This document shows positions 12,901 to 32,745 of a stretch of 32,745 nucleotides of DNA, one piece after another; position 1 is the first letter of the stretch; each line of letters starts with the position of its first letter. Where the stretch lies: the IMG/VR virus record IMGVR_UViG_3300030390_001165, positions 4,870 through 37,614 of that record, one strand, 5' to 3'. The DNA is from a virus. Position numbers and translations under genes: made by a program. The notes below the pieces were generated by a model, which saw only the letters and a program-made list of their open reading frames with translations, ran no database searches and was not told the origin of the DNA.

Positions 12901-15900
12901 TTATCAGAACACGATCCATCATCAACTCCTGATGGTACACAAAGTGGTGGTTGGGGTAAAGGAATACAACAAGAATCTAGCGGACAACAAAGATGGTATA
13001 TAGAACTAGCACACTCACAGTTAAAACCAGGCTTTGATGATGAGCAATCATTCATAGGTAGTAGAGTTGGTAATGTAGCAGAACCAGGTGACATAAACTT
13101 TGCTGATATTAATGAAAATTATATTTGGGAAGTTGGTAGTTCATCAAACCCTAGTCATATTTCTGAATCAGCTATTGTAAATGCTATGGCAACAGGCAAT
13201 AAGTTTAGATTTACAGGTGATACAAACCCAGACTCAGTTAATGGAACTGCTAGTCAACTTTACACTATAACAGAAGTACAAAAAATAAGAAGATATAACC
13301 ATACTCGTTGGGGAAGACGTGATGGTACTAAGTTTGGACCTAACTCTTTGCATAAAGTTTGGAAAAATGCACACAATGATCCTTATTATTTAAATAGTAA
13401 CTGGGATAACGCTAGTTATGTAGATTATAAAGAAAATTGGGAAAAATTCATGAGGTCTGACAACAGAAGAATAGTTTACAGAATATATATTGACAAAAAC
13501 CCTTTAACTTCTTCTAGTTTTAACCCTATTGGCGTTGTCACTGGTCTTAGTGAAGGAGCAGATAACGATACTGCAATTGGTATTGAGTTTGTTTCGCCAA
13601 GAACATTTGAAACAGCACCGTTAATAAGTGATAATCCAGCTGTATGGGAAACAGAGCCAAAAGAAAACATAGACTTAAACATATTTCACGAAGCTAGCCA
13701 AGTATATCCTATAAACCTAGATTCTACAAACAATTACTTGTATGTTCCAAAAGGATCAATAGTAACTTTACCTGGAAATAGTCAAGCTTTGTATAAAGAT
13801 TATACAAGTACAGATGTAGACACTACTGTTTTAGGTTGGTTTGATCACGACGGTAATAACCCAGGTGATTTAATAGCGCTTGACAGAGAAATAGATACTA
13901 CTGTAATGGCAGGTAGTCAAGTTTTAAAGTTTACTAGACATAATAACAGTTACACAACATTAACACTTGCAGATCTAACTAAAGTTGGAGTATATCCTAA
14001 TAGTAAGTATGTTTACAAAGTTAATACGGATGTGTCACAAAACGAAGTTGGACTTTCTTGGTATAATGCGTTTTCTTTTAGTAATGGTGTTGAATCTGAT
14101 AGATTAAGAGATGATTTTAATCAAGTAAAACTAGACAAAGGACCAATAGTATCTACAATACTTGATACTGTTTATGAAGAAGAAAGAAGAAGTAGTGGTT
14201 TAATATATTCAGGTATATATAATAGTAATAGTGGTGTTAACAGCTTAAATCAATTTATACAAGCAGAAAAAATAACAAAAGATTTAAACCCTACATACGG
14301 TAGTATACAAAAGTTGTTTAGTAGAAATACTGATTTAATTGCATTATGTGAAGATAGAGTTGTAAGAATACAAGCAAATAAAGATGCAATATTTAATGCT
14401 GACGGAAATCCTCAGTTAATAGCTTCAAATAGAGTTTTAGGTCAAACAATGCCTTTTTCAGGTGATTACGGTATATCTAAAAATCCAGAAAGCTTTGCTG
14501 TAGATAATTTCAGAGCTTATTTCACAGACAAACAAAGATCAGCTGTATTAAGACTTTCTAAAGATGGTTTAACACCTATATCTGATTATGGTATGAGTGA
14601 TTGGTTTGGTGATAATTTACAAAACTACCCTAAACTTATAGGTTCTTTTGATAGCGACAAAGGTGACTACAACTTGACATTAAGAGAGGCACATGTAATT
14701 TATAATAACGAGCCAAAAACTTTAACTTATAACGAGAACGCTAAAGGTTGGGTTAGTTTTAAATCTTTTACTCCTGAACAAGGTGCAAGTATGGGTAATA
14801 GCTACTACACTTTTTTAGGCGGTTATTTATATAAGCATAATGATGAGTCTGTAGATAGAAATACTTTTTACAATAACTTTACTCCTTCTTCAGTAGATGT
14901 TTTATTAAACACACAACCTAGTAGTATTAAAAATTATCAAACTTTAAACTACGAAGGTACTAAATCAAAAGTAACTACAGAGTTTGTACCACCAAGTGTT
15001 TTTTCAAATGAATTTGAAGGTTATGACAAGTTAGTTTCAAAAGAAGGTTGGTTTGTAGAAAGTATAATTACAAACAAGCAGAAAGGACATATTAATGAAT
15101 TTATAGAAAAAGAAGGTAAATGGTTTAATTATATAAAAGGTAATACACTAACAAGTAGTGCTGATATTAAAACGTCTGAATTCTCTTTTCAAGGTATTGG
15201 AAGAGCAACAACAGTTCCACCACCTGCTTTAGGTTGTACAGACTCTTCAGCTTTAAATTACGATCCTCTAGCTAACGTTGATGATGGAACATGTACTTAT
15301 CCAATTCCAGGTTGCATGAACGACAAAGCATATAACTACGATCCTTCAGCACAGGTTGATGATGGTACTTGTATGTTTGTTCTTAGTTATAATTGTGATT
15401 ACGTTAGTCCTCAAGGTGGAATAATTGCTATTTATGATGGCACAGGTACTTATCTAGACCCTGTTGTAGCGGTAAGCAATTGCCCTACTTGTAATGGTGC
15501 TCCTGGTTGTACAGATCCACTTTATGTAGAGTATGATCCGCTAGCAGTTTGTAATGATGGTTCATGTCTTACACTAGCGGTTGATGGTTGTATGGATAGT
15601 AACACTGGACCTCCGTTTTTTCCAGATGTTCATGGCTTTTGTGTAGACGGTGCTTCGCCTGGTAGTAGTGGTAAATGCGACCCTAATAATGGTTATGTTG
15701 TTTGTAATTATGATCCATTAGCTACTACAGACGACGGTAGTTGTACAGTGCCTTATTATGGTTGCACAGATCCACTTGCAAACAATTACGATCCTTGTGC
15801 TTCTTTCTTACAAGGTTGTACGTATGATGTTTACGGTTGTACTGACCCTACTCAATTTAATTATGATCCAAATGCTAATATTGATGATGGTAGTTGTACT

Positions 15901-16800
15901 CCAATAGTTTTAGGTTGTATAGATGCTAGTGCTGTAAATTACAATGCAAACGCAAACACTGACGATGGAACCTGTTGCTTTGTAGGTGGTTGTACAGACC
16001 CTACACAATCTAACTACGATCCTTTAGCTTGCTTTGATGATGGAAGCTGTGTTCCATTTACACAAGACTGGGCGCTGATAGATCCTTGTGTAGGTTGTGG
16101 AAATTATGGTGAAGCTTATCTTATTGCAAACTATCCTAATGCGTTTAGATTTTTAAGCGAACAAGGTTGTGCAGCTGCTGCTTATAATAATTTGTTTGGT
16201 ACTAACATTGGTCCTCAAAATCACCACTACTATTACTACAACGTAGACCCTAGCACTGGCGTGAATATTTATCACTTTTCTTGTAATCAAGCAGAAGGTG
16301 ATGGTTGTACTAATTGGATTCTTGGTTGCACAGACTCTTCACAGATAAATTATGATCCATTAGCAAACTGTTCAGATATTGTCGAAACTTCACCAGGAAA
16401 TTTTTCCAGTACTTGTGTTCCAGTAATATCTGGTTGTACAGATCCAGTAGCTTCAAATTATTATCCAGGTGCTTCAGTAGAAGATGGTACTTGTGTTTAT
16501 CTTGGTTGTGATGATCCTACTCAAATGGGTTACGGTTATATATTAAACTACAATTACAACGGTGGAAGTGGTTCATTAGGTTTAGATGAATATATAGACA
16601 TGCAAACATATACACATACTTTTGCAAACCCTACTAACGTAGGTACAGGTATAAACAATGGTGGACCGTATTATGGTCAAACATTTACATATAGTTATCC
16701 TTCACCACCATCACCGGGTAGAACTTTTAATCCGATACCAGCAGGTGGTAATACGTCTTGTTCATTTATAAACGGTTGGGTTCTTACAAACATAACGTAA
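9907..16800 (+). CDS. Giant tail protein (2297 aa) with C-terminal Cys-rich repeats
   Basis: A very large virion protein, probably the main tail or stabilisation component. The start (MPEIKNTFTQGKMNKDLDER, then LVPNGQYRDAMNIQVSTSD) is a hallmark I recognise in long structural proteins of marine Bacteroidota-type phages. The first 1700 residues are beta-rich with short repeated strand patterns (GNKRVLNFITHQLITGINIL, NDFIFWTDNNYEPKKI), consistent with beta-propeller and Ig-like folds. From residue 1776 to about 2196 there are ten copies, some broken or interrupted, of a roughly 21-residue Cys-rich unit, and a final Gly/Pro/Tyr-rich tail. No signal peptide or catalytic motif is seen. It probably combines a structural N-terminal body with a host-contacting C-terminus; the latter is inference. 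Confidence 0.72.
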   Translation: MPEIKNTFTQGKMNKDLDERLVPNGQYRDAMNIQVSTSDSSDVGAIENVLGNKLLMAGDELGDSSYCVGTVADEKNDALYFFIAGPVYAALNDTISRDIIYEYKDNQVTPVVVDVYRIRTAYGSHDDTTNTILVPPIYDGLGGFTPYTEIQVGQHVQWDGHQRSFFGNNPIVAVSSPDVDGNITVTVANPFTITNFTTQDGQMGSFIFTNPGNKRVLNFITHQLITGINILNDFIFWTDNNYEPKKISIPRCKAGTTSIDLHTKLVVPDRNITAANNILLEEKHVTLIRKAPSTPLLINPKFDLPITANATIDFAPNAQDDLLEIGDLVDSVFSNFQNGMSFEVGDEIRFLSGAGELPDDHEVRATVTENTGGQSFKFKIQSIAGNTSVTNTTYSVMQIPGEDSLFEKKFPRFSYRYKYQDGEYSTFAPFSDVIFSASSFDYDSKIAYNKGMQNYIESLELRNFKPHDLPEDVVQIDLLYKESNSPTIYIVDKIKATDTNGNVLINGIAGFSNWEANTFKVTSDLIYSVVPSNQLLRPYDNVPRVALAQEVTGNRVVFANYLQNYNLDVKPVLESEQVSRFDRSFDGGSLVQYELLFMGNNTDDVSFIKTNYDYSDYRGLPTLKTIRNYQVGVTYLDTYGRETPVFSNPESSFFIPKKQAAAKTQIKTRVSTTPPIWSKGFKFYVKETSSEYYNLAMDRVYRAEDGNVWLAFPSSERNKVDEETFLYLKKQVDSNSAVPEQAKYKIIAIENEAPEFIKTEIKLVGSSSQTETDTLLQTSAPVIGSDYFEVDEDTWVAANNAKLIDVLEKLSLSFHKEGFFTKKYDVINLSYGNGGGISGGGVYRLTLDRPLDTDDQWIYPNFPTVLANNIPDFGNNLSLKVYKHVVENKPEFAGKFFAKINGDSITEDRLIGAVSSEIQYQVDARMNAYFLLDALNSGPFGGTNTTGVNKSDNIAKVGNNLDFNNPEDDIVDSEWFIDGVYYPMIHKSSSGAKGTGFHLSEHDPSSTPDGTQSGGWGKGIQQESSGQQRWYIELAHSQLKPGFDDEQSFIGSRVGNVAEPGDINFADINENYIWEVGSSSNPSHISESAIVNAMATGNKFRFTGDTNPDSVNGTASQLYTITEVQKIRRYNHTRWGRRDGTKFGPNSLHKVWKNAHNDPYYLNSNWDNASYVDYKENWEKFMRSDNRRIVYRIYIDKNPLTSSSFNPIGVVTGLSEGADNDTAIGIEFVSPRTFETAPLISDNPAVWETEPKENIDLNIFHEASQVYPINLDSTNNYLYVPKGSIVTLPGNSQALYKDYTSTDVDTTVLGWFDHDGNNPGDLIALDREIDTTVMAGSQVLKFTRHNNSYTTLTLADLTKVGVYPNSKYVYKVNTDVSQNEVGLSWYNAFSFSNGVESDRLRDDFNQVKLDKGPIVSTILDTVYEEERRSSGLIYSGIYNSNSGVNSLNQFIQAEKITKDLNPTYGSIQKLFSRNTDLIALCEDRVVRIQANKDAIFNADGNPQLIASNRVLGQTMPFSGDYGISKNPESFAVDNFRAYFTDKQRSAVLRLSKDGLTPISDYGMSDWFGDNLQNYPKLIGSFDSDKGDYNLTLREAHVIYNNEPKTLTYNENAKGWVSFKSFTPEQGASMGNSYYTFLGGYLYKHNDESVDRNTFYNNFTPSSVDVLLNTQPSSIKNYQTLNYEGTKSKVTTEFVPPSVFSNEFEGYDKLVSKEGWFVESIITNKQKGHINEFIEKEGKWFNYIKGNTLTSSADIKTSEFSFQGIGRATTVPPPALGCTDSSALNYDPLANVDDGTCTYPIPGCMNDKAYNYDPSAQVDDGTCMFVLSYNCDYVSPQGGIIAIYDGTGTYLDPVVAVSNCPTCNGAPGCTDPLYVEYDPLAVCNDGSCLTLAVDGCMDSNTGPPFFPDVHGFCVDGASPGSSGKCDPNNGYVVCNYDPLATTDDGSCTVPYYGCTDPLANNYDPCASFLQGCTYDVYGCTDPTQFNYDPNANIDDGSCTPIVLGCIDASAVNYNANANTDDGTCCFVGGCTDPTQSNYDPLACFDDGSCVPFTQDWALIDPCVGCGNYGEAYLIANYPNAFRFLSEQGCAAAAYNNLFGTNIGPQNHHYYYYNVDPSTGVNIYHFSCNQAEGDGCTNWILGCTDSSQINYDPLANCSDIVETSPGNFSSTCVPVISGCTDPVASNYYPGASVEDGTCVYLGCDDPTQMGYGYILNYNYNGGSGSLGLDEYIDMQTYTHTFANPTNVGTGINNGGPYYGQTFTYSYPSPPSPGRTFNPIPAGGNTSCSFINGWVLTNIT
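15232..16494 (+). repeat. Coding repeats: GCTDxxxxNYDPxAxxDDGTC units
   Basis: About ten protein repeats lie within the 2297-residue tail protein (residues 1776-2196). Clean units include GCTDSSALNYDPLANVDDGTC minus its last residue, GCTDPTQFNYDPNANIDDGS and GCTDPTQSNYDPLACFDDGS. Others are degenerate (GCTDPLANNYDPCASFLQGC) or split by insertions of 20-80 residues. Each unit has two conserved Cys and an acidic DDG turn, so disulfides and calcium binding are likely. DNA copies have diverged at synonymous sites, so the array is not recent. The same unit is common in surface and secreted proteins of marine Bacteroidota, from which it may have been acquired. Confidence 0.88.
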
Positions 16801-19926: not shown

Positions 19927-21540
19927 ATGGCTGTAACTACAAAAGCAGATATGGCCCTAATACAAGGGGCAAGAGATGTAGGTAAAAGTATGGGGCCTGC
20001 AGACTTATCAGGTCTTGATAAAATAACAACAGCCGGAAAAGACATGGCTGTTAGTGCTTTAGGTGAAATACAAAAAATAGAGCAAGCAAAAGTTGATTCT
20101 AACAATGCTTTTACAGAAGCTGCTAATGAAGTTGAATTAGCTTCTGGTTCTTTAGGTGAGGTACTATACAATGATACTGTTGATTTTGCACAACAAGCTA
20201 AACAAAATTATTTAACAGCTTTAAAGGCAGGTGATGATAAAGGTATGATGGCGGCTAAAAAATCAATGCAACAAAGATCTGCTTTTACGCAACAACACAA
20301 AGCATTTGTAACAGATTTAGCTAAATTACAAAAAGATGGTGATTTAAGTTCTGCACATACAAAAGAAGAAAACGAATACATGACAGCTGTTTTAAAAGGA
20401 AACTACTCAGTTAAAACAAATGACAAAGGTCAAATGGTTTTTAACGTTAATGGCGTAGAAAAAACAAATGCTGAGTTTGAAGACATGTATATTTTAAAGA
20501 ATTATGAAGTTGGTAAAACTCTTGGAGAACTAAACGCTCTTAACAAGAAAAACTCTACGTTTGACAGAAATGCAACTACAAATGCACTTGCTCAAATTGT
20601 TCCTAACACTATAAAAGATTTTAGAGCTTCAATATCTGATGATATAGGTGGTGGTAAAAACCTTCCTACCTTGTTAAACGAAGATATTAGTTTAGACGAA
20701 GATATATTAAGAGGTATTGGTGGTTGGGACGAAAATGGTGATAATATTGTTGATCCTGAAGAAAAAGCTAAACTTATAGATGCTATAACAAACACTAATA
20801 ATCCAAATTTTGATTTAGAAACTTCTAGGTCTATAATGACAGATAAACTTGTTAATGCTGTAGAAAACAATCATACTAATCATTGGGAAAAACAAAGAAA
20901 AGCAGCAGAACAAGCTAATAAAGACAAAACCGCTGCGGCTAAAAAAGTTTTTGATGATAAAATGGAGTTAGAAAGATACAAGCAATCTCAACTAAATTTA
21001 AGAAATCCAAACGCTAGAAAAGATCTTATTTTAGATGAAAAAATGGAAGAGTTTAGCTTGCTAGAAGCTAGCAGGGTAGATGCTCAAGGTAATAATACTA
21101 TGTTAGATGCTATTGCACAATATTCAAAAATGGATGAAAAAGGTGGTTCTAGTCTAAGAGGTAATAGTAAAGATTTTAAAATTATCAGACAAGGTGTTGC
21201 AAGAGAAATTAATTGGTATAGAAATAATATTGATCAAAGCGCTGATGTTCGTCATTTATCCGCAAAAGATATTGCAAAAGATTATCCAAACGCAAATCAG
21301 TCTGGTGCTTTTGATGGTACTGGAAATGGTAAATCAGGTTACTATAGAATAGTAGAAGATGGAGATAAAGTAGATAGTAAAGGTAATACAATTTACGTAC
21401 CTGTTTTAATTAATAACGGTTGGCAGCTTGATGGCAATAACCTTACAAATACAATTGATTATGACGCTACGGCAATAAAAGATCCTGATCAAACATCTAC
21501 TAGCACTGGAAGTTTAGACCCTAAAGATGAAAATAAATAA
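19927..21540 (+). CDS. Internal virion protein with EF-hand-like loop (537 aa)
   Basis: A mostly helical protein between the Gln/Ala-rich ejection protein and the giant 2938-residue protein, a position like that of T7 gp15. Charged, coiled-coil-like helices occur around residues 55-140 and 300-365 (NHWEKQRKAAEQANKDKTAA). At 268-279, DENGDNIVDPEE matches the EF-hand calcium loop at positions 1, 3, 5, 8, 9 and 12. It could bind calcium, although a single loop may not do so alone. There is no signal peptide or membrane segment. The start is one base after the upstream stop, and its TAA shares its last A with the next ATG (TAATG). It is likely a partner of the giant protein in DNA ejection; this is inference. 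Confidence 0.62.
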   Translation: MAVTTKADMALIQGARDVGKSMGPADLSGLDKITTAGKDMAVSALGEIQKIEQAKVDSNNAFTEAANEVELASGSLGEVLYNDTVDFAQQAKQNYLTALKAGDDKGMMAAKKSMQQRSAFTQQHKAFVTDLAKLQKDGDLSSAHTKEENEYMTAVLKGNYSVKTNDKGQMVFNVNGVEKTNAEFEDMYILKNYEVGKTLGELNALNKKNSTFDRNATTNALAQIVPNTIKDFRASISDDIGGGKNLPTLLNEDISLDEDILRGIGGWDENGDNIVDPEEKAKLIDAITNTNNPNFDLETSRSIMTDKLVNAVENNHTNHWEKQRKAAEQANKDKTAAAKKVFDDKMELERYKQSQLNLRNPNARKDLILDEKMEEFSLLEASRVDAQGNNTMLDAIAQYSKMDEKGGSSLRGNSKDFKIIRQGVAREINWYRNNIDQSADVRHLSAKDIAKDYPNANQSGAFDGTGNGKSGYYRIVEDGDKVDSKGNTIYVPVLINNGWQLDGNNLTNTIDYDATAIKDPDQTSTSTGSLDPKDENK

Positions 21541-24500
21541 TGAGCAAAAGACCTATTGACCAACTTTATGCAAATGTAAAAGCCGATGGCAGGTTTACTG
21601 GTGGCTACGAAGATTTTGTAGGCGCTATGAAAGACGAGTCATATAGAGATAAAGTGTTTGATAGTGTTTCAAAGTCTGGTGAATATTCTTACAACCAAGA
21701 TAGCTTTCACATAAGGTATAGACCTGAATCTTCAGAGTTTATGCAAGATGGTGATGCTATTATTTTTAATAACGACAAAGAATATACAGAGCGAGATATT
21801 ATTGCTACAGCAGGTGGTACAAACGAGCAGGTAACTGGTATGGGTCAAGATCCTAATACGATTATGGATAAGTTAAAGCCTGTTACAGCAGATTTAATAG
21901 ACATGGACGAGGAAAACGTAGTAAAACACCTTAGACAGTCTTATTCTGGTATGGGTTTTGAGTTTGAAGAAGGAGGACTTGGAGATTATGTTTATGTAAC
22001 TCACCCAGACGCTAAAGAACCATTAAAAATATCTACAGATAATTTTGAGCTAAAACTTGGTGGTAAAAAGCTACTTAATGGAAACCAAAAAAATGCAGAT
22101 AAGTTAAATGAGTTTTTTAACACTTATGGAAACCCTGATGCAATGGCGATTAAAAATTCCCATGCGTTACCTCAGCAACTTACTGTTATAAACGATATGC
22201 TTAATGAAGAAACTCGTGATGAGGGTGGAGAAAACAGATTAAGCAAAGAAGCTCATAACGCTAACGCTGCTAAAGATATAGAAGGTGGTTATATTGCTAG
22301 GTTTGGAAGATTTATTGAAGAAAAAGGCAGTGTAATGAAATACGTGCCTGGTGTTGGAGCTGGTTCTTTTGGAGGTTTAGGTCTACAAAATTTTGACAGA
22401 GCTAGGAAAGTTGTTGGTACTGTAGGTGAAGTTCTTGGAAAAGCAATAAATGCAAATTCAAACAAGCATCTTGAAAATGCAGAAGATTATTTTGAAGATT
22501 TACAAAGATTAGCACCTGAACGTTTTAAAGAGCTAGTGCCAGAAGGTGAAGTAACTCCTGAGCTTATTAAAGAAAAAGCTATACAACTAAGAAGTAACGA
22601 GTTACAAGAAAATGAAAGGATAGAAAGAGTAAATAGTCATTTAACAAACTTATCCTCAGAAGAAGAAGATTATCTTATGAAAGTCTCAGCTAAGCAAACT
22701 GAGAGAATGGGAGCTAGAGTTAAAGACAACAAAATAAAAATAAACAGAGTACTTACGTTAGAAAAGGCGGTTGTTCAAGAAAGCAATGATCTAAACAAAC
22801 TTATTGAGCAAATAAACGCAAGAGCAGAAGGAGGCGAGGTTATATCAAGAAAAGAAATACAAGATTTTAAACTAAGAGAGCAAAAACTTAGAAATACTTA
22901 TAACCTTGTTAACAAAGCTAAATTATCTCACATAGACCTAAATAATAATTTCGAGGCACAAAAAGAATCTTTAGATTATTTAGATAACATTAACAATGTA
23001 ACTGCAAACCAAATATACACGTTTGGTACAGGAAGTATGAAAATGCTTGGTCAAGGTCTTTGGCTTGCTGGAACTGTTACTGATCATCTTGGCACTGCTT
23101 TAGAGAATGCAGGTGATAATAGAGAAAACAAAGGTAAAGGTAAAAACCAAATAAACAATTCAAATGTATCTGCTTTAAAAGTGATAACTTATGGTTTAAG
23201 AGAAGCTAGCAAGAATATAGACAAGATGGAAATGGATAGGTTTAACAAAAAACAACCAGTAGGTTTTTCTGGAGTTAAAAGTACTGTTGAAAAAGGTATA
23301 CTAGGTGTTTTTGAAAATTTACCTAATCTAACACTTGCTTATGTTACTGGTGGAGGAAGTATGGTAGCTAACATGGCTGTTTTTGGTTTATCTGGAGGTG
23401 TTGATAAGCATAAAGAAATGGTTAAAGATGTTGAGTCTGGTAAAAGAAAATATACTACAGATCAATTAATTTTTGCTCCTATAGCTTATGGTGGTTTTGA
23501 GGCAGCAACAATGATACCTGAAATGTTGATGTTAAGAGGAGCTCTTAAAGGATCAGGAACAGGTGTTTTTGGCGAAGTTAGAGATGAACTTTTCAAACCT
23601 ATTCTTGCACCAATTGGTAGATCGTTATTAGGTTTTGGAAAAGCTCAAGCAAGTGAAATAGCTCAAGAAGTATTCACGCAGTTAGGTCAAAATGGTGTAG
23701 ACAGATTTATGCTTGATAAACGAGACGAAAGAGGAGATAGAGTTGAATTAGGTGATGGTTTAGATGCAGACTTTTTTATCAAAACAATTGGATCAACAGG
23801 TGCTTTTCACGTAGGACCAAGAGCTTTGCAAGGTGCTTTAGGTTTAATGACAGGTATGACTCTTGAAGCTGATAATGTTGAAATGAACAAGAGATCTGCT
23901 AAAATGGTTGACTTAAAAGCTAAAATAAAAATAGTAACTGATCAACTTCTTGGTGATGAGTTTTCAGCTGTAAACAACTCTGTTGGTAGAGGTAAAAAAG
24001 AAGCAGAGTTAAACGAACTTGAATTAGAATTATCTAAAGAAGAGTTAGCTTCTGAAACTCAAATTAGTAGTATTATGGCTAGGTTTGGTGGTTTAAACCA
24101 AAGAGGTGTTAACTTACTTAGAGGTTTAGCTAGAGAATCTGGATCATTAAGAGATCAAGCTAGAGAAATAAAACAAAACCCTGACTTGTCAAGAAAAGAA
24201 AAAAGACAAAAACTAAAAATGCTTTCTGACAGGTTTGACAATGTTGAAGCTCAAAAAGAACAATTAATAAATCATGATAAATCTTATCAACTAGAAGATG
24301 GTAAAAAAGTCAAAGATTTAGAACAAAGAGCATTAGCAATTTTAAATGATAAAAATAAAACAGCTCCTACCCAACAACAAGTAGAAAAGCAAGCTCAGAA
24401 AATGTGGGACGAAGAAAACAAATCTAGTGACTCTTCTTATACTCAAGCTAGACAAGGAGTAGCAGATCAAATAAAAAGGTTTGAGTCTGACGTAATGATT

Positions 24501-27500
24501 GGTAAGATAAACGAAATTGATCCTGAAGCACCAATAGAAAAATTTGAAGGTAACACTTTGCAAGAAGCTAAAGACTGGTTAACTAACAATTTAAAAGAAA
24601 AAGGTTTTACTAAAAAAGAAATAGGTGGTTTAGTAAAAGAATTAGAAGATACATGGGAAGATGCAACCGCGTCTATACTTCAACCTAAGGTTAAAAACAA
24701 GGGTGTAAACAAAAAAACAAATAAATTTGACAAGCACCAGCTTATAATTGTTAATGCTAAAAAATCGGCTAAAAACAAAAACTTTGCAGCAAGAGGACAT
24801 GAGATACTACATGCTGTAGTTTGGAAAGCGTTTAAAGCTTCTGGTGTAGGTTTTAAAACTATGGCTCAAGGTATGGAAAGCCTTATAAAATCTCAAGATG
24901 AGGTTGGTGCTAAATGGTTAAAAGACAGAATGAAAGCTTATGTAAATAAAAGTGGTAAGTTAGATAATGATTACTACGAAGAAGTTATAATGGCTATAGC
25001 GGACGGTATTAGAGCTGGTCGTATTAAAAATGATGGTGACACCCAAGCCGCTGTACAGTCTTCTTTAATGAAAGCTATAAAAAAAGTTTTTCCTGGTCAA
25101 GAAGATGCTGGTAGCTTATTGATAAACAATCCTCAAGACATGCTTAATTTAATATCTAAGTATAGCTCAAGCCTAAAACAAGGTGAGCTTGATCTTGATA
25201 TTCAAAAGCTTGTTGCTGGTGATGTTGTTGTTTCAGAAGACTTAAAAATTGTAGAGCAAAAAACAGCAAACCGTAAGTTTAAAAAATCTATGGACGCTCT
25301 TAGTAAATCTGCTAGAGAAGTTTTAACCGAAGCAATACAAGAGTCTAGAAAAATATCTGCAGAAAAAGTTAATGATGTTTATGGTAAGTTTAAAAATGGA
25401 AATGTTGAATCGTTTGACGCTTTAAACGATATAGGCTTAGCTTACGATGCAATGTTTAATAAAGCAATAAAACAGTTTGAGGACGAGCACAACGTTAGGT
25501 TTGGACAAGAGCAAATAGATCAATTTAAATTTGAAGCAATATATGGTGATAGAGGTATAAGAGGTGCTTTGATTTTTGATCCTAAAAAACCTAGAAAAAT
25601 ATTTGATCCTAGCGTTCAAGTTATTATAGATGGTGTATTAAAAGATAATGTTCCAGCTAAATATTTAAATGGTTTATTACCTCAACGTATGATTGAGTTT
25701 GCTGTAAAGGCAATACCAAACCTTGATGAGTATTATGCTAAAGATATTAGCAACATGATAGACTTAGAAGCTGAAGAAACAGCTGACGTTATCGCAGACA
25801 ACACTCAAGAGTACAAAAGAGATAAAAAAGATTTAACAGATTTATCAGTTGTAAAAAAAGAAGCTATTAAAGCCATTAACGATGATGTTAAAAGTATAGT
25901 AAAAAGAGCACTAGCAAACCCAGTACAATCAGCACAAGAAACAATTAACGCTATTGAGCAAAAAATAGAAAAAGAATATTTTAAGCTTATTAAAAAAGAA
26001 ATGGGTGGCATACACCAGTATGGTAAAAGTAAAATTGTAGTTATAAGTGAAGAGTACAAAGCATTTCATGATTTACAACACGACATTGTAGTTAAAGGTT
26101 TACCAGCACAAACTATTAAAAGAAAATATAACACTTTGTTTGATTTAACAAAGCTTGGAAGAGAATTAACTCCACAAGGTAACGCTATATACGATATAAA
26201 GTTATCAAAGCCTAAAGCTGAGTTTATTAACTTTTTTATAAAAGGAAAATATACAACGTTAAAAAACAAACAAGCTTCGCTAGCAAAAGAAGTTGCTCAA
26301 GCATTAGCTTCAAAAGCTGCGTATGAGATTTTAAAAGATCAAGACGTTTTAAATCAAATTGCTGAAATGCAAGATCTGCAAGGATTTACTTCTTTAATAG
26401 GTATAGAAAACGAAATTAAAGAGATTGGTGAAAATTTAGATAAGAAAAAAGGTGAAGAAAGAAAGTTTGATAACATTAAGCTTTCTAAAGATATAGCTGA
26501 ACTTAGTGTTGACGAAAAACAAATACTTTACAAAGGACTACCTAAACTTGGTAATGAATTCATGAAGCGTGGTAAGTCAATGGCTGCAGCTTTTAATGTT
26601 GTATATCCTGAGCCTATGTTTGGTAAGTATAGAAAATCTATAATAGCAGATGCTACTAAGTATATAAAACAATACGAGGTTGATAAGAAAAGGTATGAAA
26701 TAATTGGTAAAGAAATGCCTAGCACAGTAGCAGAAGTTATTAGAGATGAGTTTAAAATGAAGGAAGAAGAAAGCACTATAAAAGAAGTTTTAGGTCTTGA
26801 TGCTTTTTCTATAAACTTTAGAGACCCTAAACAATTGCAAGACGTTAGAGAAGCTGTGGTTAAAATAGCTGATAAAATAGGTATTGAAAAAGCCGCTAGG
26901 TTTTTAACGTTTTTATATGCTTCTGGAAAAATTGGTGGAACTAGACTTGTTAACAATGGTAAAGGTGGTTTAGAAGTTGATCCTGATTTTGAAATAAAAA
27001 GAGCTGCTAAAGGACTAATAGCTAAAGAAACAGAAACTTTAAGATACGGTATTTTTGGTAGTGCTCAAGATTTTACTGCTTTTGTTTTAGAAGGTTTACC
27101 AGGTTATACTAAAAAATATAAAAGTAAAATAGCTAAAGATGCTGCTCAAAACGTTGGCAAGCTAAACAAAGACTTTAACTACGATGATGACTTAGCTTCT
27201 GCTAAAGTAAACAAAGCATTTTTAAAAGAAATAGCTGATGTAATGAGAGATCTTGAGGCTGCTGGAGAGATTACTAAAAATGATATAGGTATGTTTATGA
27301 TGAGTTTGTCTGGCGATATGAGAACACCTCTTGCTGCTGCAGCTCAATTACAATATTACACTGGTGATGGACCTTACTCTGCTAAAACACACGTTTATGA
27401 ACATGTAGTACCTAGAAAAGTTATTAATATGATGTTAGTTGGTTATGCTACTGGTGCTGTTACAGAAGCAGATCTTGACATTATGTTAGATGCTTTTTCT

Positions 27501-30356
27501 GTAGCTGTTATACCTAAAGACCAAGATAACATTGTAGGTAAGTTTTACAAAGACAGTATGCCACCTGCTTATATTGACATACTAGACAGATATTTTAACA
27601 TGAAAACTTTTGGTGATGTTAACATGGTATTAACAGATGCTGCAACTGGACTACCAGTTCCAAAGTCTGAAGCTTTTTCAAAAGCTGCTACAGAAATAAA
27701 TGTTAAGCAAATAAAAAACTCTAAAGACTTACAACAAGTAATAAGCAACCAACCAAACAATAAAGATGCTAAAGGAATTAGTGTTTTTGATTTTGACGAA
27801 ACAGCTGGTATAAGCGATAATTTTGTTATAGCAACTAAAGATGGTGTTACAGAAAGAATATCATCAGATCAATGGCCTATGGTTGGAGATCAAATGGTGA
27901 AAGACGGTTGGTCAATGGACTTTTCAGACTTTAACAAAGTAACAAATGGTAGACCAGGACCGTTAATGCAGAAGCTTAAAAATCAAATTAAAAAATACGG
28001 TAGAAATGATGTATTTATATTAACAGCTAGAGCACCACAAAGTCAACAAGCAATACATGCTTATTTAAAAAGTGAAGGTATTGATCTACCTATAAAAAAT
28101 ATAACTGGCCTAGGTAATAGTACTGGAGAAGCAAAAGCTAATTGGTTTATAGAAAAACTAGCTGAAGGTTATAATGATTTTTATTTTGTTGATGATGCTA
28201 TGCCAAATGTAAAAGCTGTTGATGATTTGTTAAGTCAATTTGATGTTAAATCAAAATCTGTACAAGCTATAATAAAAAACAGCAAGGACATGGATCTTGA
28301 GATTAACGATATAATCGAGCAAAATAAAGGTATTCAGTCTGAGAAAAGATATAAAAGATCTCAAGCTAAAATTCAAGGAAGAAAGCAAGGTAGATGGAAA
28401 CTTTACATACCACCTGGAGCTGAAGACTTTATGGGTTTAATGTACAACATAGCTTCGGCAGCTGGTAAGCTTGGTGAGGCACAGCTTGATTTTTTTAGAG
28501 ACAATATACTAAGACCTTACCAAGAAGGTATAAACAATTTAAACAAAGCAAGACAAGCTGTAACTACTGAGTATAAAGATCTTTTAAAAGCTTTTCCAAA
28601 CGTTAAAGCAAAACTTAACGAGATGGTTCCTGGTACAAACTTTACTTATGACGCGGCTGTAAGAGTTTACTTGTGGGACAAAGCAGGTTTTAAAATACCT
28701 GAAACATCTCAAGCTGCTCAAAAGCAATTAGTCGATGCTATTAAGGCTGATGCTGAGATGCTTGCGTTTGCAGAGTCGGTTGGTTTAATATCTAGAAGAC
28801 CAGAAGGTTATGTAAAACCAGAAGAAGATTGGATCGCTGAAACTATAGTTGCTGACTTAGATAACGCTGTTAATAAAATTGCTAGAAAAGAATTTTTAGC
28901 ACAGTTTCAAGAAAACGTTGGAGTAATATTTTCACAAGAAAATTTAAACAAAATAGAAGCTGCATACGGTCTTGATTTTAGAGAAGCTTTAGAAGACATG
29001 TTACACCGAATGACTACTGGTAAAAACAAAAATGTTGGCAAAACAGATCGTCAAGTTAATAGATGGACAGAGTGGATAAGTAATTCTATTGGTGCTATTA
29101 TGTTTTTAAATATGAGATCTGCTTTACTACAAACTTTATCTACAGTTAACTTTATAAACTGGAGTGATAATAACCCTGTCAAAGCAGCTGCGGCATTTGC
29201 AAATCAAAAAAATTATTGGTCTACGTTTGTAAAAATATTTAACTCTGACTTTCTAAAACAAAGAAGATCTGGTTTAAAAATGGATGTAAATGAAGCTGCT
29301 TTAGCTAATGCAATGAGTGGAAAAGTAAACAAGGCAAAAGCTGTCTTAGCCTACATATTAAAACTAGGTTTTACACCTACACAAATAGCAGATAGTTTTG
29401 CAATTGCAGCTGGTGGTGCAACATTTTTAATCAACAGAACAAATACTTATTTAAAAAAGGGTATGAATAGAGCTGATGCTGAAGCTCAAGCTTTTGAAGA
29501 CTTTACATCTAGAGCGAATGAGAGTCAACAATCTTCTGATCCTTCTTTAATATCTAAACAACAAGCAAGTATACTTGGTAGATTTATATTAGCATTTCAA
29601 AATACTCCTATGCAGTATGCTAGGTTAATGAAAAAAGCTGGAGTTGATTTAATAAAAGGTAGAGGTGATTGGAAAACTAATGTTTCAAGAATAGTTTACT
29701 ACGGTGCAGTTCAAAATATAATATTTGCTAGCTTACAATCAGCACTTTTTGCTTTGGCATTTGCTGGTGATGACGAAGACGAAGAGTTGAAAGATAAAAA
29801 AATAGAGAGATTAGGTAATACTGTTGTAGATTCATTATTGAGAGGTACTGGTATATACGGCGCTGTTCTTGCAACTGCAAAAAACATAATGCTTGAATTC
29901 TGGAAACAAGATCAAAAAGGTTTTAGAGCAGATCACGCTTACACACTACTTGCTTTTGCAAATATATCTCCACCAATAGGTTCTAAAATGAGAAAACTTT
30001 ATAGTGCAACTCAAACTAGAAAGTTTAATAAAGAAATCATGGACACAATGGGTGTAGATATTAATAACCCTATGCTACCTGCTGTTAGTACAGGTATAGA
30101 AGCTTTTACTAATATACCTTTAGGTAGAATAGTTACAAAAGTAAATAATGCTCAAGCTGCTTTAAACGAAGAAAACGCAATGTGGCAAAGAATGGCTTTG
30201 TTGATGGGTTGGAATACTTGGGATGTTGGTGTTAAAAACTTAGAAGTTGAAGAAGCAAGAAGAGCAAGTAAAATAAGGAAGAAAAAAATATCAGCAGCTA
30301 AACGTAAAAGTAAAAGTAAAAGTAAAAGTAAATCAAAAAGATCTTATGACAGATAA
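21540..30356 (+). CDS. Giant multidomain virion protein (2938 aa): protease-like and HAD-like domains
   Basis: A huge polyvalent-type protein, probably ejected with the DNA, as with T7 gp16. Visible parts in order: an N-terminal domain (RPIDQLYANVKADGRFTGGY); coiled-coil regions (about 340-480); hydrophobic segments near 493-520, 595-620 and 644-666; more coiled coil (about 780-960); GHEILHAVVW with HExxH at 1087-1091 and a candidate third ligand in YYEEVIMAIAD (E1147/E1148); an HAD-like domain with DFDET (2084-2088), a Thr in ILTARAP (T2162) and FVDDAMPN (D2218, D2219); a hydrophobic stretch at about 2719-2743; and a conserved-looking end (NAMWQRMALLMGWNTWD, about 2880-2896) before a Lys/Ser tail. 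No lysozyme-like domain is recognised. Activities are predicted from motifs only. Confidence 0.75.
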   Translation: MSKRPIDQLYANVKADGRFTGGYEDFVGAMKDESYRDKVFDSVSKSGEYSYNQDSFHIRYRPESSEFMQDGDAIIFNNDKEYTERDIIATAGGTNEQVTGMGQDPNTIMDKLKPVTADLIDMDEENVVKHLRQSYSGMGFEFEEGGLGDYVYVTHPDAKEPLKISTDNFELKLGGKKLLNGNQKNADKLNEFFNTYGNPDAMAIKNSHALPQQLTVINDMLNEETRDEGGENRLSKEAHNANAAKDIEGGYIARFGRFIEEKGSVMKYVPGVGAGSFGGLGLQNFDRARKVVGTVGEVLGKAINANSNKHLENAEDYFEDLQRLAPERFKELVPEGEVTPELIKEKAIQLRSNELQENERIERVNSHLTNLSSEEEDYLMKVSAKQTERMGARVKDNKIKINRVLTLEKAVVQESNDLNKLIEQINARAEGGEVISRKEIQDFKLREQKLRNTYNLVNKAKLSHIDLNNNFEAQKESLDYLDNINNVTANQIYTFGTGSMKMLGQGLWLAGTVTDHLGTALENAGDNRENKGKGKNQINNSNVSALKVITYGLREASKNIDKMEMDRFNKKQPVGFSGVKSTVEKGILGVFENLPNLTLAYVTGGGSMVANMAVFGLSGGVDKHKEMVKDVESGKRKYTTDQLIFAPIAYGGFEAATMIPEMLMLRGALKGSGTGVFGEVRDELFKPILAPIGRSLLGFGKAQASEIAQEVFTQLGQNGVDRFMLDKRDERGDRVELGDGLDADFFIKTIGSTGAFHVGPRALQGALGLMTGMTLEADNVEMNKRSAKMVDLKAKIKIVTDQLLGDEFSAVNNSVGRGKKEAELNELELELSKEELASETQISSIMARFGGLNQRGVNLLRGLARESGSLRDQAREIKQNPDLSRKEKRQKLKMLSDRFDNVEAQKEQLINHDKSYQLEDGKKVKDLEQRALAILNDKNKTAPTQQQVEKQAQKMWDEENKSSDSSYTQARQGVADQIKRFESDVMIGKINEIDPEAPIEKFEGNTLQEAKDWLTNNLKEKGFTKKEIGGLVKELEDTWEDATASILQPKVKNKGVNKKTNKFDKHQLIIVNAKKSAKNKNFAARGHEILHAVVWKAFKASGVGFKTMAQGMESLIKSQDEVGAKWLKDRMKAYVNKSGKLDNDYYEEVIMAIADGIRAGRIKNDGDTQAAVQSSLMKAIKKVFPGQEDAGSLLINNPQDMLNLISKYSSSLKQGELDLDIQKLVAGDVVVSEDLKIVEQKTANRKFKKSMDALSKSAREVLTEAIQESRKISAEKVNDVYGKFKNGNVESFDALNDIGLAYDAMFNKAIKQFEDEHNVRFGQEQIDQFKFEAIYGDRGIRGALIFDPKKPRKIFDPSVQVIIDGVLKDNVPAKYLNGLLPQRMIEFAVKAIPNLDEYYAKDISNMIDLEAEETADVIADNTQEYKRDKKDLTDLSVVKKEAIKAINDDVKSIVKRALANPVQSAQETINAIEQKIEKEYFKLIKKEMGGIHQYGKSKIVVISEEYKAFHDLQHDIVVKGLPAQTIKRKYNTLFDLTKLGRELTPQGNAIYDIKLSKPKAEFINFFIKGKYTTLKNKQASLAKEVAQALASKAAYEILKDQDVLNQIAEMQDLQGFTSLIGIENEIKEIGENLDKKKGEERKFDNIKLSKDIAELSVDEKQILYKGLPKLGNEFMKRGKSMAAAFNVVYPEPMFGKYRKSIIADATKYIKQYEVDKKRYEIIGKEMPSTVAEVIRDEFKMKEEESTIKEVLGLDAFSINFRDPKQLQDVREAVVKIADKIGIEKAARFLTFLYASGKIGGTRLVNNGKGGLEVDPDFEIKRAAKGLIAKETETLRYGIFGSAQDFTAFVLEGLPGYTKKYKSKIAKDAAQNVGKLNKDFNYDDDLASAKVNKAFLKEIADVMRDLEAAGEITKNDIGMFMMSLSGDMRTPLAAAAQLQYYTGDGPYSAKTHVYEHVVPRKVINMMLVGYATGAVTEADLDIMLDAFSVAVIPKDQDNIVGKFYKDSMPPAYIDILDRYFNMKTFGDVNMVLTDAATGLPVPKSEAFSKAATEINVKQIKNSKDLQQVISNQPNNKDAKGISVFDFDETAGISDNFVIATKDGVTERISSDQWPMVGDQMVKDGWSMDFSDFNKVTNGRPGPLMQKLKNQIKKYGRNDVFILTARAPQSQQAIHAYLKSEGIDLPIKNITGLGNSTGEAKANWFIEKLAEGYNDFYFVDDAMPNVKAVDDLLSQFDVKSKSVQAIIKNSKDMDLEINDIIEQNKGIQSEKRYKRSQAKIQGRKQGRWKLYIPPGAEDFMGLMYNIASAAGKLGEAQLDFFRDNILRPYQEGINNLNKARQAVTTEYKDLLKAFPNVKAKLNEMVPGTNFTYDAAVRVYLWDKAGFKIPETSQAAQKQLVDAIKADAEMLAFAESVGLISRRPEGYVKPEEDWIAETIVADLDNAVNKIARKEFLAQFQENVGVIFSQENLNKIEAAYGLDFREALEDMLHRMTTGKNKNVGKTDRQVNRWTEWISNSIGAIMFLNMRSALLQTLSTVNFINWSDNNPVKAAAAFANQKNYWSTFVKIFNSDFLKQRRSGLKMDVNEAALANAMSGKVNKAKAVLAYILKLGFTPTQIADSFAIAAGGATFLINRTNTYLKKGMNRADAEAQAFEDFTSRANESQQSSDPSLISKQQASILGRFILAFQNTPMQYARLMKKAGVDLIKGRGDWKTNVSRIVYYGAVQNIIFASLQSALFALAFAGDDEDEELKDKKIERLGNTVVDSLLRGTGIYGAVLATAKNIMLEFWKQDQKGFRADHAYTLLAFANISPPIGSKMRKLYSATQTRKFNKEIMDTMGVDINNPMLPAVSTGIEAFTNIPLGRIVTKVNNAQAALNEENAMWQRMALLMGWNTWDVGVKNLEVEEARRASKIRKKKISAAKRKSKSKSKSKSKRSYDR
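30304..30333 (+). repeat. GTAAAA tandem repeat encoding a Lys-Ser tail
   Basis: Five units of the hexamer GTAAAA or a near variant lie at the 3' end of the giant gene and encode alternating Lys and Ser (KSKSKSKSKS). The repeat stays in frame for any gain or loss of whole units, so tail length can vary by replication slippage. A basic tail at this position could bind DNA or membrane. Confidence 0.85.
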
Positions 30357-30357
30357 T

Positions 30358-31404
30358 ATGAAAAAACTAATAATAATAATGTGTATAGCATTGGTTGCTT
30401 GTGCCGCGCCAAAAGATTGTTGTTCACAAAACTTTAAAAAGTATTTTAAGTTTGCTACGTTTTACGCTGCAGCTAATGGTGGTAACTCTATATCAAACAT
30501 AGATGTATTTTCTGTAACTAACGGTTTAGAAACTGTAACAGTAGAAACTCCATACGATTACAACTTAGCTTTAGGTATACGTAAAATCGCTAGGTTTGGC
30601 TACGAAAACAGAGCTAGTACTTTTTACGATGGTACAGAAGAGTCTTGGTCAGATGGTGCTAATGTAGGTAAAGTACGTGGACTAGAATTTTTATTTGAAG
30701 TAGATTATAAAAGACAACAAGGTAATGAATATTTAGATCAGCATCACTTTATAAGATTTGTAGATGACAAGTATATATTAAAAGGCGAATACCTAGAAGA
30801 TGGTTTTGCTGATATAAAATACTTTGAAACATCACAGAGATATAGATATAAAGCTAATGACAAATTGTCTTTCAATGCTGGACTTGCTCAAAGGTTATCC
30901 GAGCCTTATGGTTACGATCCTTTAGCAGAATGGGTGCTCAGCAATGGCAATATACATTACACTTACCTAGCACTACAAGAAGGCTACAACGTCAACGTAG
31001 CTGCTAGTGAGTATATTTCTCCTGATGGAGAGCTCGTTGCTACAAGCAAAGAGGTTTGGGAAGAGGTTGTAATACCAACTGTATTATCTGATTACACAAC
31101 TAGAAAAAGAAGCGAACTTGACAACACTATATTACACTCTGTTGTTTTAGGTTTTGATTACTACCGTTACACTAAATCATTTTGGTCACATGCTTGGGCT
31201 AGTGTAATGCCTTTTCACATAGACAATGGTGAGTTTTCTTATGAAAAATATAACAACGGTCAGTGGCTTGATTATAGTGGTGGTTTAATACTTGGTTATA
31301 AAGTAAATAAGCATTTAGGCACGTTTGTTGAAGGTAAATACAATAAGTACTGGAATAGAGAGTGGTATGACTTTAAATTTGGAGTAAACTACGTAATCTT
31401 CTAA
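30358..31404 (+). CDS. Predicted lipoprotein / outer-membrane-like protein (348 aa)
   Basis: An exported protein. I chose ATG 30358 rather than the in-frame ATG 30346, which would overlap the giant gene, because 30358 gives a clean signal peptide (MKKLIIIMCIALVACAAPKD) and the TAATATG spacing seen at other genes here. LVAC (12-15) fits a lipobox, so C15 would be lipidated. The mature part is rich in alternating aromatic/polar strands (TRKRSELDNTILHSVVLGFD, LGTFVEGKYNKYWNREWYDF) and ends in KFGVNYVIF, like the last strand of an outer-membrane beta barrel. Lipid anchor and barrel together are unusual, so one of the two may be wrong. Four Cys lie within the first 22 residues. I recall similar hypothetical proteins in marine phages. 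Possible roles are envelope remodelling or blocking superinfection. Confidence 0.68.
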   Translation: MKKLIIIMCIALVACAAPKDCCSQNFKKYFKFATFYAAANGGNSISNIDVFSVTNGLETVTVETPYDYNLALGIRKIARFGYENRASTFYDGTEESWSDGANVGKVRGLEFLFEVDYKRQQGNEYLDQHHFIRFVDDKYILKGEYLEDGFADIKYFETSQRYRYKANDKLSFNAGLAQRLSEPYGYDPLAEWVLSNGNIHYTYLALQEGYNVNVAASEYISPDGELVATSKEVWEEVVIPTVLSDYTTRKRSELDNTILHSVVLGFDYYRYTKSFWSHAWASVMPFHIDNGEFSYEKYNNGQWLDYSGGLILGYKVNKHLGTFVEGKYNKYWNREWYDFKFGVNYVIF

Positions 31405-31425: not shown

Positions 31426-31707
31426 ATGGCAAAAGAATTAAATGAAGAGACTGGGTTTAATATAAGTATAAAAACAATGATAGCTGTTGGCTTTGCCATG
31501 GTAACTATTATTGGTATGTGGTTTGCTTTGCAAGCTGATATAGCTGAAGCTAAAGAGCTACCTAAACCTGATGTTACGAAGATGGAATTTCAAATGAAAG
31601 ATAAAAACATTAGATTATCTATTGAAAATACAGAAAAAGCTGTAGAAGAGCTTAAAATAGATATTAGACGTATGGAAGATAAAATAGATAGACTAAATCG
31701 AAGATAA
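31426..31707 (+). CDS. One-pass membrane protein with coiled coil (93 aa)
   Basis: A short N-terminus (ELNEETGFNISIK) is followed by one membrane segment at about 16-36 (KTMIAVGFAMVTIIGMWFAL). A charged, heptad-like helix follows at about 50-93 (NTEKAVEELKIDIRRMEDKI). The same layout, ELNEETGFNISIKT then a membrane helix then acidic/Lys-rich coils, occurs in small genes of many marine phages as I recall. The shape fits an inner-membrane spanin-like or pinholin-like lysis protein, or an anchor for the proteins around it. No endolysin gene is adjacent, which weakens the lysis reading. Its TAA overlaps the next ATG by one base (TAATG). Confidence 0.65.
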   Translation: MAKELNEETGFNISIKTMIAVGFAMVTIIGMWFALQADIAEAKELPKPDVTKMEFQMKDKNIRLSIENTEKAVEELKIDIRRMEDKIDRLNRR

Positions 31708-32030
31708 TGAAAAAACTTATACTACTATTTTTAATATGCAGCTCAAGTGTTTCAGCTCAAATAGTTGTTACACATTTTAATGCTGAGTGGAACGATCCAA
31801 ACAAAGTAGCTTACATAGGTAAACTTACTGATTGTGAAATAGTATATGTAGATATAGCTAAAGCACCTAAGCTACAAGAGAAGCATGAGATAGTTGTAGT
31901 ACCAACAGTTGTTATATATAAAGATGGTGAAGAAGTAAAAAGGTTTCAAGCTGACATATCGTTTAGCATGAAAGCAACTAGAAAAGAAATGCAAGCAGTG
32001 ATCGATGAACTATTAATGAGTGACTTTTAG
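31707..32030 (+). CDS. Secreted thioredoxin-fold protein without redox cysteines (107 aa)
   Basis: Residues 1-17 form a signal peptide (MKKLILLFLICSSSVSA), so the mature protein should be periplasmic. The rest follows the thioredoxin fold: strand IVVTHFNAEW, then at 29-32 NDPN replaces the catalytic CGPC; later VPTVVIYKDGEEVKRF (65-80) carries the conserved cis-Pro (P66) and following strands; and a C-terminal helix (RKEMQAVIDELLMSDF). With both active-site Cys missing it cannot be a normal disulfide oxidoreductase. A single Cys at 43 remains in the mature part. It may be a binding module, for example sequestering a host envelope protein or serving as a chaperone. It lies in a tight overlap chain with its neighbours on both sides. 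Confidence 0.75.
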   Translation: MKKLILLFLICSSSVSAQIVVTHFNAEWNDPNKVAYIGKLTDCEIVYVDIAKAPKLQEKHEIVVVPTVVIYKDGEEVKRFQADISFSMKATRKEMQAVIDELLMSDF

Positions 32031-32571
32031 ATTATTAATACTACTACTATTTATATCTTGTGCTAAAGAAACCGATGATCTTGGTTACAGAACTTACATA
32101 ATACCAGAAGGTAAACATCGATCAGGTAGTTTTTTTAATCACCCAGACAACTCTAGAATTAACTTTCACTTTATACTAGACGAATCAGCAGAGTATACAA
32201 CAGAGATACCAGAAAACCAATATGATGTTAACAAGATATATGGTTTTAGCGATTTTGGCAAAACACATAAAAAATACTCTATAAGATTAGGTTGGAGATA
32301 TATTGAAGGTAACATAGAACTTTGTTGGTTAAAACGTGAGAACAATACAATGTCTTCTGGTTTTATAAGAAACATAGATATAAACACGTCGTATGAGGCA
32401 ATGATTGATATAGAAACGTTTTACTACACTATAACAATAGATGGAGATACTACAAGCGTTAGAAGAAGACCTGATGGGTTTTGGGGTACGATTAGAAGGT
32501 ATTACTTATATCCTTATTTTGGTGGAAATGAATTTGCACCTCACGATATAACAATAAAAATTAAAGAATAA
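32020..32571 (+). CDS. Predicted surface lipoprotein with beta-sandwich domain (183 aa)
   Basis: The frame is closed by TGA immediately upstream, so the first start is GTG at 32020, overlapping the end of the thioredoxin-like gene by 11 bases. The N-terminus TFRLLILLLFISCAKETDD is a lipoprotein signal with C14. The Lys-Glu-x-Asp-Asp after the Cys resembles the acidic lipoprotein export signal that places Bacteroidota lipoproteins on the cell surface. The mature part is beta-rich with many aromatics (YSIRLGWRYIEGNIELCWLK, YYTITIDGDT, then YLYPYFGGNEFAPHDITIKI), suggesting a jelly-roll or lectin-like sandwich. I see no clear glycoside hydrolase catalytic motif. Possible roles are glycan binding or masking of a phage receptor. 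Confidence 0.65.
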   Translation: MTFRLLILLLFISCAKETDDLGYRTYIIPEGKHRSGSFFNHPDNSRINFHFILDESAEYTTEIPENQYDVNKIYGFSDFGKTHKKYSIRLGWRYIEGNIELCWLKRENNTMSSGFIRNIDINTSYEAMIDIETFYYTITIDGDTTSVRRRPDGFWGTIRRYYLYPYFGGNEFAPHDITIKIKE

Positions 32572-32575
32572 AATT

Positions 32576-32647
32576 ATGAAAGAAAAAAAATGTGTGTGTG
32601 GTAAAACAAAAGATGCTAACGGTAATTGTGATGGTTCGCATGCGTAG
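32576..32647 (+). CDS. CDGSH-type microprotein (23 aa)
   Basis: A tiny gene: ATG at 32576, TAG at 32645-32647, encoding MKEKKCVCGKTKDANGNCDG then SHA. The pattern C-x-C-x2-T-x6-C-D-G-S-H is the CDGSH iron-sulfur (2Fe-2S) signature, with one more residue than the usual spacing and Asn where Pro is common. Ligands would be C6, C8, C18 and H22. Nothing else is present, so the whole protein is the cluster-binding loop. It starts four bases after the previous stop, following AAAATT as at other starts here, and overlaps the next gene. Chance occurrence of such a motif in the right place is unlikely, but expression is unproven. Confidence 0.7.
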   Translation: MKEKKCVCGKTKDANGNCDGSHA

Positions 32648-32745
32648 TTTATTAACATTTTTAGTAGCGTTTATAATAAGTTTTACAATGACTGCACAAG
32701 GTAGTTATTGTGAAAATACTTTAATAAACATAAATCTAGATCAAT
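32640..32745 (+). CDS. Signal-peptide protein, cut by window end
   Basis: The first 35 residues are visible. MRSLLTFLVAFIISFTMTAQ is a good signal peptide, followed by GSYCENTLININLDQ. The start is taken as ATG 32640; an ATG three codons upstream (32631) is in the same frame and would add MVR. Either way the gene overlaps the CDGSH gene, continuing the overlap chain. It extends the run of envelope-directed genes. The function cannot be told from this fragment. Confidence 0.55.
   Translation, partial: MRSLLTFLVAFIISFTMTAQGSYCENTLININLDQ

Follow-up and report, generated by a model that had tools for sequence, protein, structure and literature searches.

Squeezed between two genes of a marine phage genome lies an open reading frame of 23 codons whose product resembles the metal-binding loop of a CDGSH iron-sulfur domain, with almost nothing on either side of it. 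The locus raises two questions: is so short a frame a gene, and does its product belong to the iron-sulfur family whose motif it carries? The window, meaning the whole stretch of 32,745 nucleotides that was analysed, corresponds to bases 4870-37614 of a 38,810-base IMG/VR virus record. Upstream of the mini-CDGSH ORF, structural genes of podovirus type were recognised by eye; a single 2938-aa ORF (21540-30356), with a weak PHROG match, is probably an internal virion protein, judged by its position. The mini ORF itself lies in a run of genes at the end of the window:

30346..31404, + strand: 352-aa secreted protein, in the same cassette as the mini ORF
31426..31707, + strand: 93-aa protein with one TM segment plus a coiled coil; weak PHROG matches of unknown function
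31707..32030, + strand: secreted thioredoxin-like protein, WNDP replacing WCxxC (Pfam PF00085, E 3e-5)
32020..32571, + strand: predicted lipoprotein, 183 aa, directly upstream of the mini ORF; only some relatives have the gene
32576..32647, + strand: mini-CDGSH (x6) ORF, 23 aa, MKEKKCVCGKTKDANGNCDGSHA; ATG start; same place in L076 and L077
32591..32641, + strand: CxC-G-x-T-x4-G-x-CDGSH motif, codons C6 to H22
32640..32745, + strand: downstream secreted protein, start only, with GCTD..NYDPLANVDDGSC repeats; overlaps the mini ORF

Neither the 352-aa secreted protein nor the 183-aa predicted lipoprotein matches a family in Pfam or PHROG. The signal-peptide ORF that starts at 32640 continues beyond the end of the window; its GCTD..NYDPLANVDDGSC repeats are also found at the end of a 2297-aa tail-region protein (9907-16800), the secreted protein itself being listed at 1550-2851 of L075. 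The WNDP thioredoxin-like protein is a common gene product in these phages, with relatives encoded in at least 267 viral stretches.

The first-pass annotation had described a complete 23-residue frame with four candidate ligands, C6, C8, C18 and H22, set exactly between two genes, and both the coordinates and the residues are correct: the start lies 4 nt past the stop of the upstream ORF, and the last 8 nt overlap the ATG of the next gene. The sequence upstream of the start is A/T-rich, as for other genes in the window. Within the window there is a single occurrence of the ligand motif; 100 dinucleotide-preserving shuffles gave not one, and base composition predicts ∼6e-6 occurrences. The annotation had also proposed that related phages be searched for the same frame. 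Among 18 related loci collected through the upstream gene, independently of the motif, L076 and L077 have the mini peptide in the same position, every ligand intact, and there the mini gene has a dN of 0.018-0.045 against a dS of 0.09-0.51, which indicates coding selection on values that derive from very few sites. The annotation's own refuting condition, a frame lost or Cys/His replaced in relatives, is therefore not borne out. In three other sisters (L079, L081 and L085) the flanking genes directly abut, so that the mini gene has the character of an optional insert; no copy turned up at another position in the records of these three, which are fragments. A second anchor, the thioredoxin-like neighbour, was likewise chosen without use of the motif and gave 80 loci, each inspected out to 6 kb. 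The motif is present in 12 of them, with C, C, C and H intact in 12/12, and no decayed copy with one ligand replaced was found within this distance in the 80 loci. Three of 40 contigs without the motif near the thioredoxin-like gene have it elsewhere. Since most of these relatives do without it, the mini gene is not essential. A chance reading frame, which its very short length and the sister phages without the gene at the same place might have suggested, is ruled out for practical purposes by this conservation together with the motif-free shuffles, and the motif belongs to a discrete class conserved across hundreds of loci.

How far the peptide can be called a CDGSH protein depends on more than its ligands. 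The published consensus is C-X-C-X2-(S/T)-X3-P-X-C-D-G-(S/A/T)-H, with 5 residues from S/T to the third Cys (PMC5859297). The corresponding stretch of the mini peptide, KDANGN, has 6, one residue above canonical spacing as first reported. According to Lin et al. 2011 (PMC3174974), CDGSH domains share C2, C4, S/T7, P11, C13, D14, G15, S/T/A16 and H17, with a hydrophobic residue before the first Cys, an N-strand, a P motif (GP-phi-x-phi) and a beta-sandwich; the domains appear to exist in pairs, and the beta-sandwich/dimer scaffold is held to be obligatory for the cluster. The window peptide, like the class to which it belongs, has the 3Cys-1His set in CxC...CDG(S/T/A)H order, and it has the second shell S/T7, D14, G15 and S/T/A16 of the published numbering. 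It lacks the x3-P-x spacing with P11, having KDANGN instead, and MKEKK before C6 and a single residue after H22 leave it without the hydrophobic residue, the N-strand and the P motif. The Pfam search returned no zf-CDGSH match for the window peptide, and its relatives score 12.9-16.6 bits against a PF09360 gathering cut-off of 29.5 bits. A canonical CDGSH domain is thus ruled out by spacing, absent proline, missing strands and the Pfam cut-off. The peptide resembles the CDGSH metal site, with ligands and second shell kept and proline, hydrophobic position, strand and P motif lost, but is not filed as a member. Of the initial description as 'nothing but a CDGSH iron-sulfur motif', the minimal, ligand-conserved CDGSH-like frame survives; the name 'CDGSH iron-sulfur protein' is not yet justified, because several defining features of the domain fail.

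The longer spacing defines a class, here called x6 (CxCGx[ST]x4GxCDG[ST]H), which was sought in motif scans with fixed spacings. The pattern is found in at least 119 viral and at least 120 bacterial-genome stretches, counts that refer to contigs or distinct sequences among the matches listed and not to independent origins. The form CxCGKTx4GxCDGSH occurs in 74 viral loci, and scans with C1 and H free, or with C2 and C3 free, return the identical 74; no ligand loss is therefore seen where the rest of the motif is present. Where the scans left residues free, the class keeps a signature of its own: x6 is discrete in having Gly at position 11 (80/85 distinct motifs, Pro in 0/85, unforced), whereas the viral class with canonical spacing has Pro in 71/71 distinct motifs, also unforced. 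Positions 6 and 16 are S or T only, R, C and W being allowed by wider scans and never found; the constancy of D and G in CDG was imposed by the scan patterns. Most copies are standalone ORFs of 20-35 aa; counted from the nearest ATG, the frame is no longer than 35 aa in 76/138 distinct phage entries and 90/118 distinct bacterial entries. Viral contigs also commonly carry standalone CDGSH miniproteins of canonical spacing, such as MKKCTCGESQTKPTCDGSHKNKGK (more than 120 stretches; loci L312-L391).

Profile comparison relates the two classes. An x6 alignment matches the canonical viral CDGSH class with 96.5% probability (E 8e-10), and the latter matches solved CDGSH iron-sulfur domains (E 2e-15). 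Compared directly with the PDB, x6 gives only sub-threshold values, with the CDGSH domains 3tbn and 3tbm on top, and its sub-threshold alignment to the Pfam PF09360 model falls on the cluster half. Relative to the NEET/CDGSH domains (PF09360; types 1-7 in Lin et al. 2011), x6 has the same CxC...CDGSH order and the conserved S/T, D, G and S/T, but one extra residue and a Gly in place of the proline, and it is without N-strand, P motif and hydrophobic interface. The type 3 single-motif PcCISD has 53 aa, whereas x6 peptides have 20-30 aa in all. The x6 members of Opitutae are tandem proteins with two motifs per chain, as in type 6 (MmCISD, 3tbn), but with x6 spacing, low-complexity linkers and, in a low-confidence model, no predicted beta-sandwich. 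AlphaFold gave a mean pLDDT of 59 for an x6 tandem and 63 for a 43-aa relative, both of low confidence, and Foldseek found no match with the low-confidence model of the 43-aa relative.

The class appears to be undescribed among the tiny proteins of marine phages and bacteria. Genes this short often fall under the length limits of gene callers, and x6 consequently appears unannotated: the standalone peptides tested are unnamed by Pfam, PHROGs and NCBIfam. A tblastn search of 50,697 GenBank phages with the mini peptide and two longer relatives gave no match, queries this short being weak. No relevant literature was found that ties CDGSH to phage, prophage, holin or YceI; x6 forms may have been mentioned earlier among the orphan CDGSH sequences in the supplement of Lin et al. 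2011.

Genomic context links the phage copies with the lysis region and the bacterial copies with YceI. When the neighbours of 172 phage loci were clustered, the commonest separate genes were a 3-TM holin (phrog_3427, E 1e-12) and an M15 endolysin (PF08291; phrog_894). Of 116 standalone copies, 82 have a holin or M15 gene no more than 1 kb away, where random placement in these loci would give 30; related phages are not independent counts in this figure. The M15 neighbours divide into a singleton and three groups that share less than 50% identity, and several gene orders recur: TM-coiled-coil/mini/M15/holin; holin/mini; M15/holin/mini; and M15/93-aa TM protein/mini/thioredoxin-like. The window's 352-aa, 93-aa TM and thioredoxin-like genes belong to the lysis region in relatives, most completely in L049; relatives of the 93-aa protein adjoin the M15 endolysin in L012, L019, L042 and L049, and in many phages the thioredoxin-like type adjoins x6 minis. 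An M15 gene is absent from the window record, whose holin lies at the opposite end from the mini gene; L004, the closest relative, has one 3.3 kb downstream of its mini gene. The canonical-spacing viral set, considered as a control for the lysis link, was dropped because its zero holin/M15 matches may only reflect different holins. The lysis region may be a mere permissive insertion site. The thioredoxin-like neighbour was considered as a redox partner, but its signal peptide and its WNDP where WCxxC would stand weaken that reading.

In further phage copies x6 is joined to an XkdF-type protease or a SAP-like segment, which shows that it works as a protein module. The mini module is the C-terminal tail of an XkdF-type prohead protease in L008, L010, L054, L064, L234, L252, L253 and L256 (Peptidase_S78_2 in L234), the fusion gene standing directly before likely scaffold and capsid genes. 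A phage family of ∼109 aa carries the module at its N-terminus (L003, L007, L014 and ∼20 similar loci); the next genes are one that looks GroES-like by eye, with no Pfam match, and then DUF3310.

Bacterial copies are abundant, which rules out a gene unique to phages. The GTDB genome stretches with x6 come from marine Flavobacteriaceae, Polaribacter, Cryomorphaceae, Paenibacillus (for example the 25-mer MGKCACGNTQNAEGNCDGSHAKKDK), Brevibacillus and Opitutae. The spread is patchy: x6 is present in 13/199 sampled genomes of one family and in 1/296 sampled genomes of the phylum, namely the centre genome. Among the matches listed, the gene immediately upstream, on the same strand, encodes YceI (PF04264) in 60/120 bacterial loci, in marine Flavobacteria, and in a separate bacterial sample the same holds for 9/15 loci. 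The outer flanks of the YceI/mini pair vary (MarR, FMN reductase, pirin, HxlR and others). YceI is fused to the mini module in L120 and L135, and a PSP1-domain protein in L111 and its relatives L201 and L212. No YceI gene was found in the record of the window phage, and a phage-encoded YceI partner was dropped as a candidate.

The best explanation overall, to which a probability of roughly 0.5 can be given, is that the mini ORF encodes a microprotein, translated and under selection, in which three Cys and one His would bind one metal centre. Metal binding taken by itself is highly probable. As the cofactor, [2Fe-2S] would be about as likely as Zn, or slightly likelier, given that the cluster site retains its second shell. 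Zinc knuckles (CCHC) and tiny CCCH modules hold 3 Cys and 1 His in fewer than 20 residues, alone or fused; x6 is like them in its ligands and differs by its spacing and its conserved CDGSH second shell. It is conceivable, though the weaker bet, that CxC...CxxxH binds one structural Zn(II) and that the peptide acts as a small adaptor, an inhibitor or a donor of zinc, with the adjoining M15 endolysin, an enzyme that is zinc-dependent by family, as a plausible partner. The tiny size, the M15 genes beside mini genes and the occurrence as a fused module, including with the SAP-like segment, are in keeping with such a knuckle. The second shell (S/T6, D14, G15, S/T16) would be needless for a plain Zn site, however, and most bacterial copies lie beside YceI and not beside a known zinc enzyme.

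Two further readings were considered. Interference with the host, already raised in the first-pass annotation, by a decoy that mimics CDGSH/NEET proteins and disturbs cluster delivery, would suit a phage-encoded, cytoplasmic peptide similar to host modules such as CQCGKTKDPNGNCDGSH of L135, but is improbable: bacteria themselves encode the same peptides in conserved YceI operons, and the phage copies keep to the lysis region. More improbable still is an inert peptide from a leader ORF, in which translation of the short Cys-rich frame would regulate the overlapping downstream gene. The overlap is there, but the ligands are invariant over many unrelated downstream genes and gene orders, and the fusions to YceI, PSP1 and XkdF are hard to square with a leader.

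The mini ORF is thus most likely a minimal 3Cys-1His metal microprotein, putatively an optional gene of the late/lysis region. The extra residue and the Gly (NPDG, DANG, AEDG) suggest a turn in place of the proline bend: in the x6 module, a one-residue-longer turn ending in Gly would replace the canonical proline turn, and the beta-sandwich would be absent. The gene would have been inserted between two genes of a secreted/lysis-region cassette, is probably translationally coupled to the gene behind, and would be expressed late together with the lysis genes, each peptide presumably holding one metal centre. A role in lysis or envelope timing has about an even chance. In many relatives the x6 mini is encoded in the same cassette as small lysis proteins such as holins and spanins; the window peptide, which is mostly polar over its 23 residues and has no lysis match in Pfam or PHROG, differs from holins, spanins and endolysins in having no membrane segment, signal sequence, lipobox or lytic domain. 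The favoured working mechanism, itself less likely than not, is that the cytoplasmic peptide exposes a labile cluster or metal, and either reports the redox or iron state or hands the metal to a partner from the same late operon, for example the M15 endolysin or the holin step.

The broadest reading is more speculative: x6 peptides of ∼25 residues might be unrecognised CDGSH-variant Fe-S microproteins, ranking with the smallest Fe-S proteins in nature, which act in a YceI-linked redox operon in marine bacteria and as a redox- or iron-responsive part of phage lysis. The mini peptide is short enough for chemical synthesis, and two testable functional links follow from where such genes lie, among the lysis genes of several phage groups and next to YceI in hosts. 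If the peptide binds a cluster, a CDGSH site would work without the dimeric beta-sandwich that has been thought obligatory.
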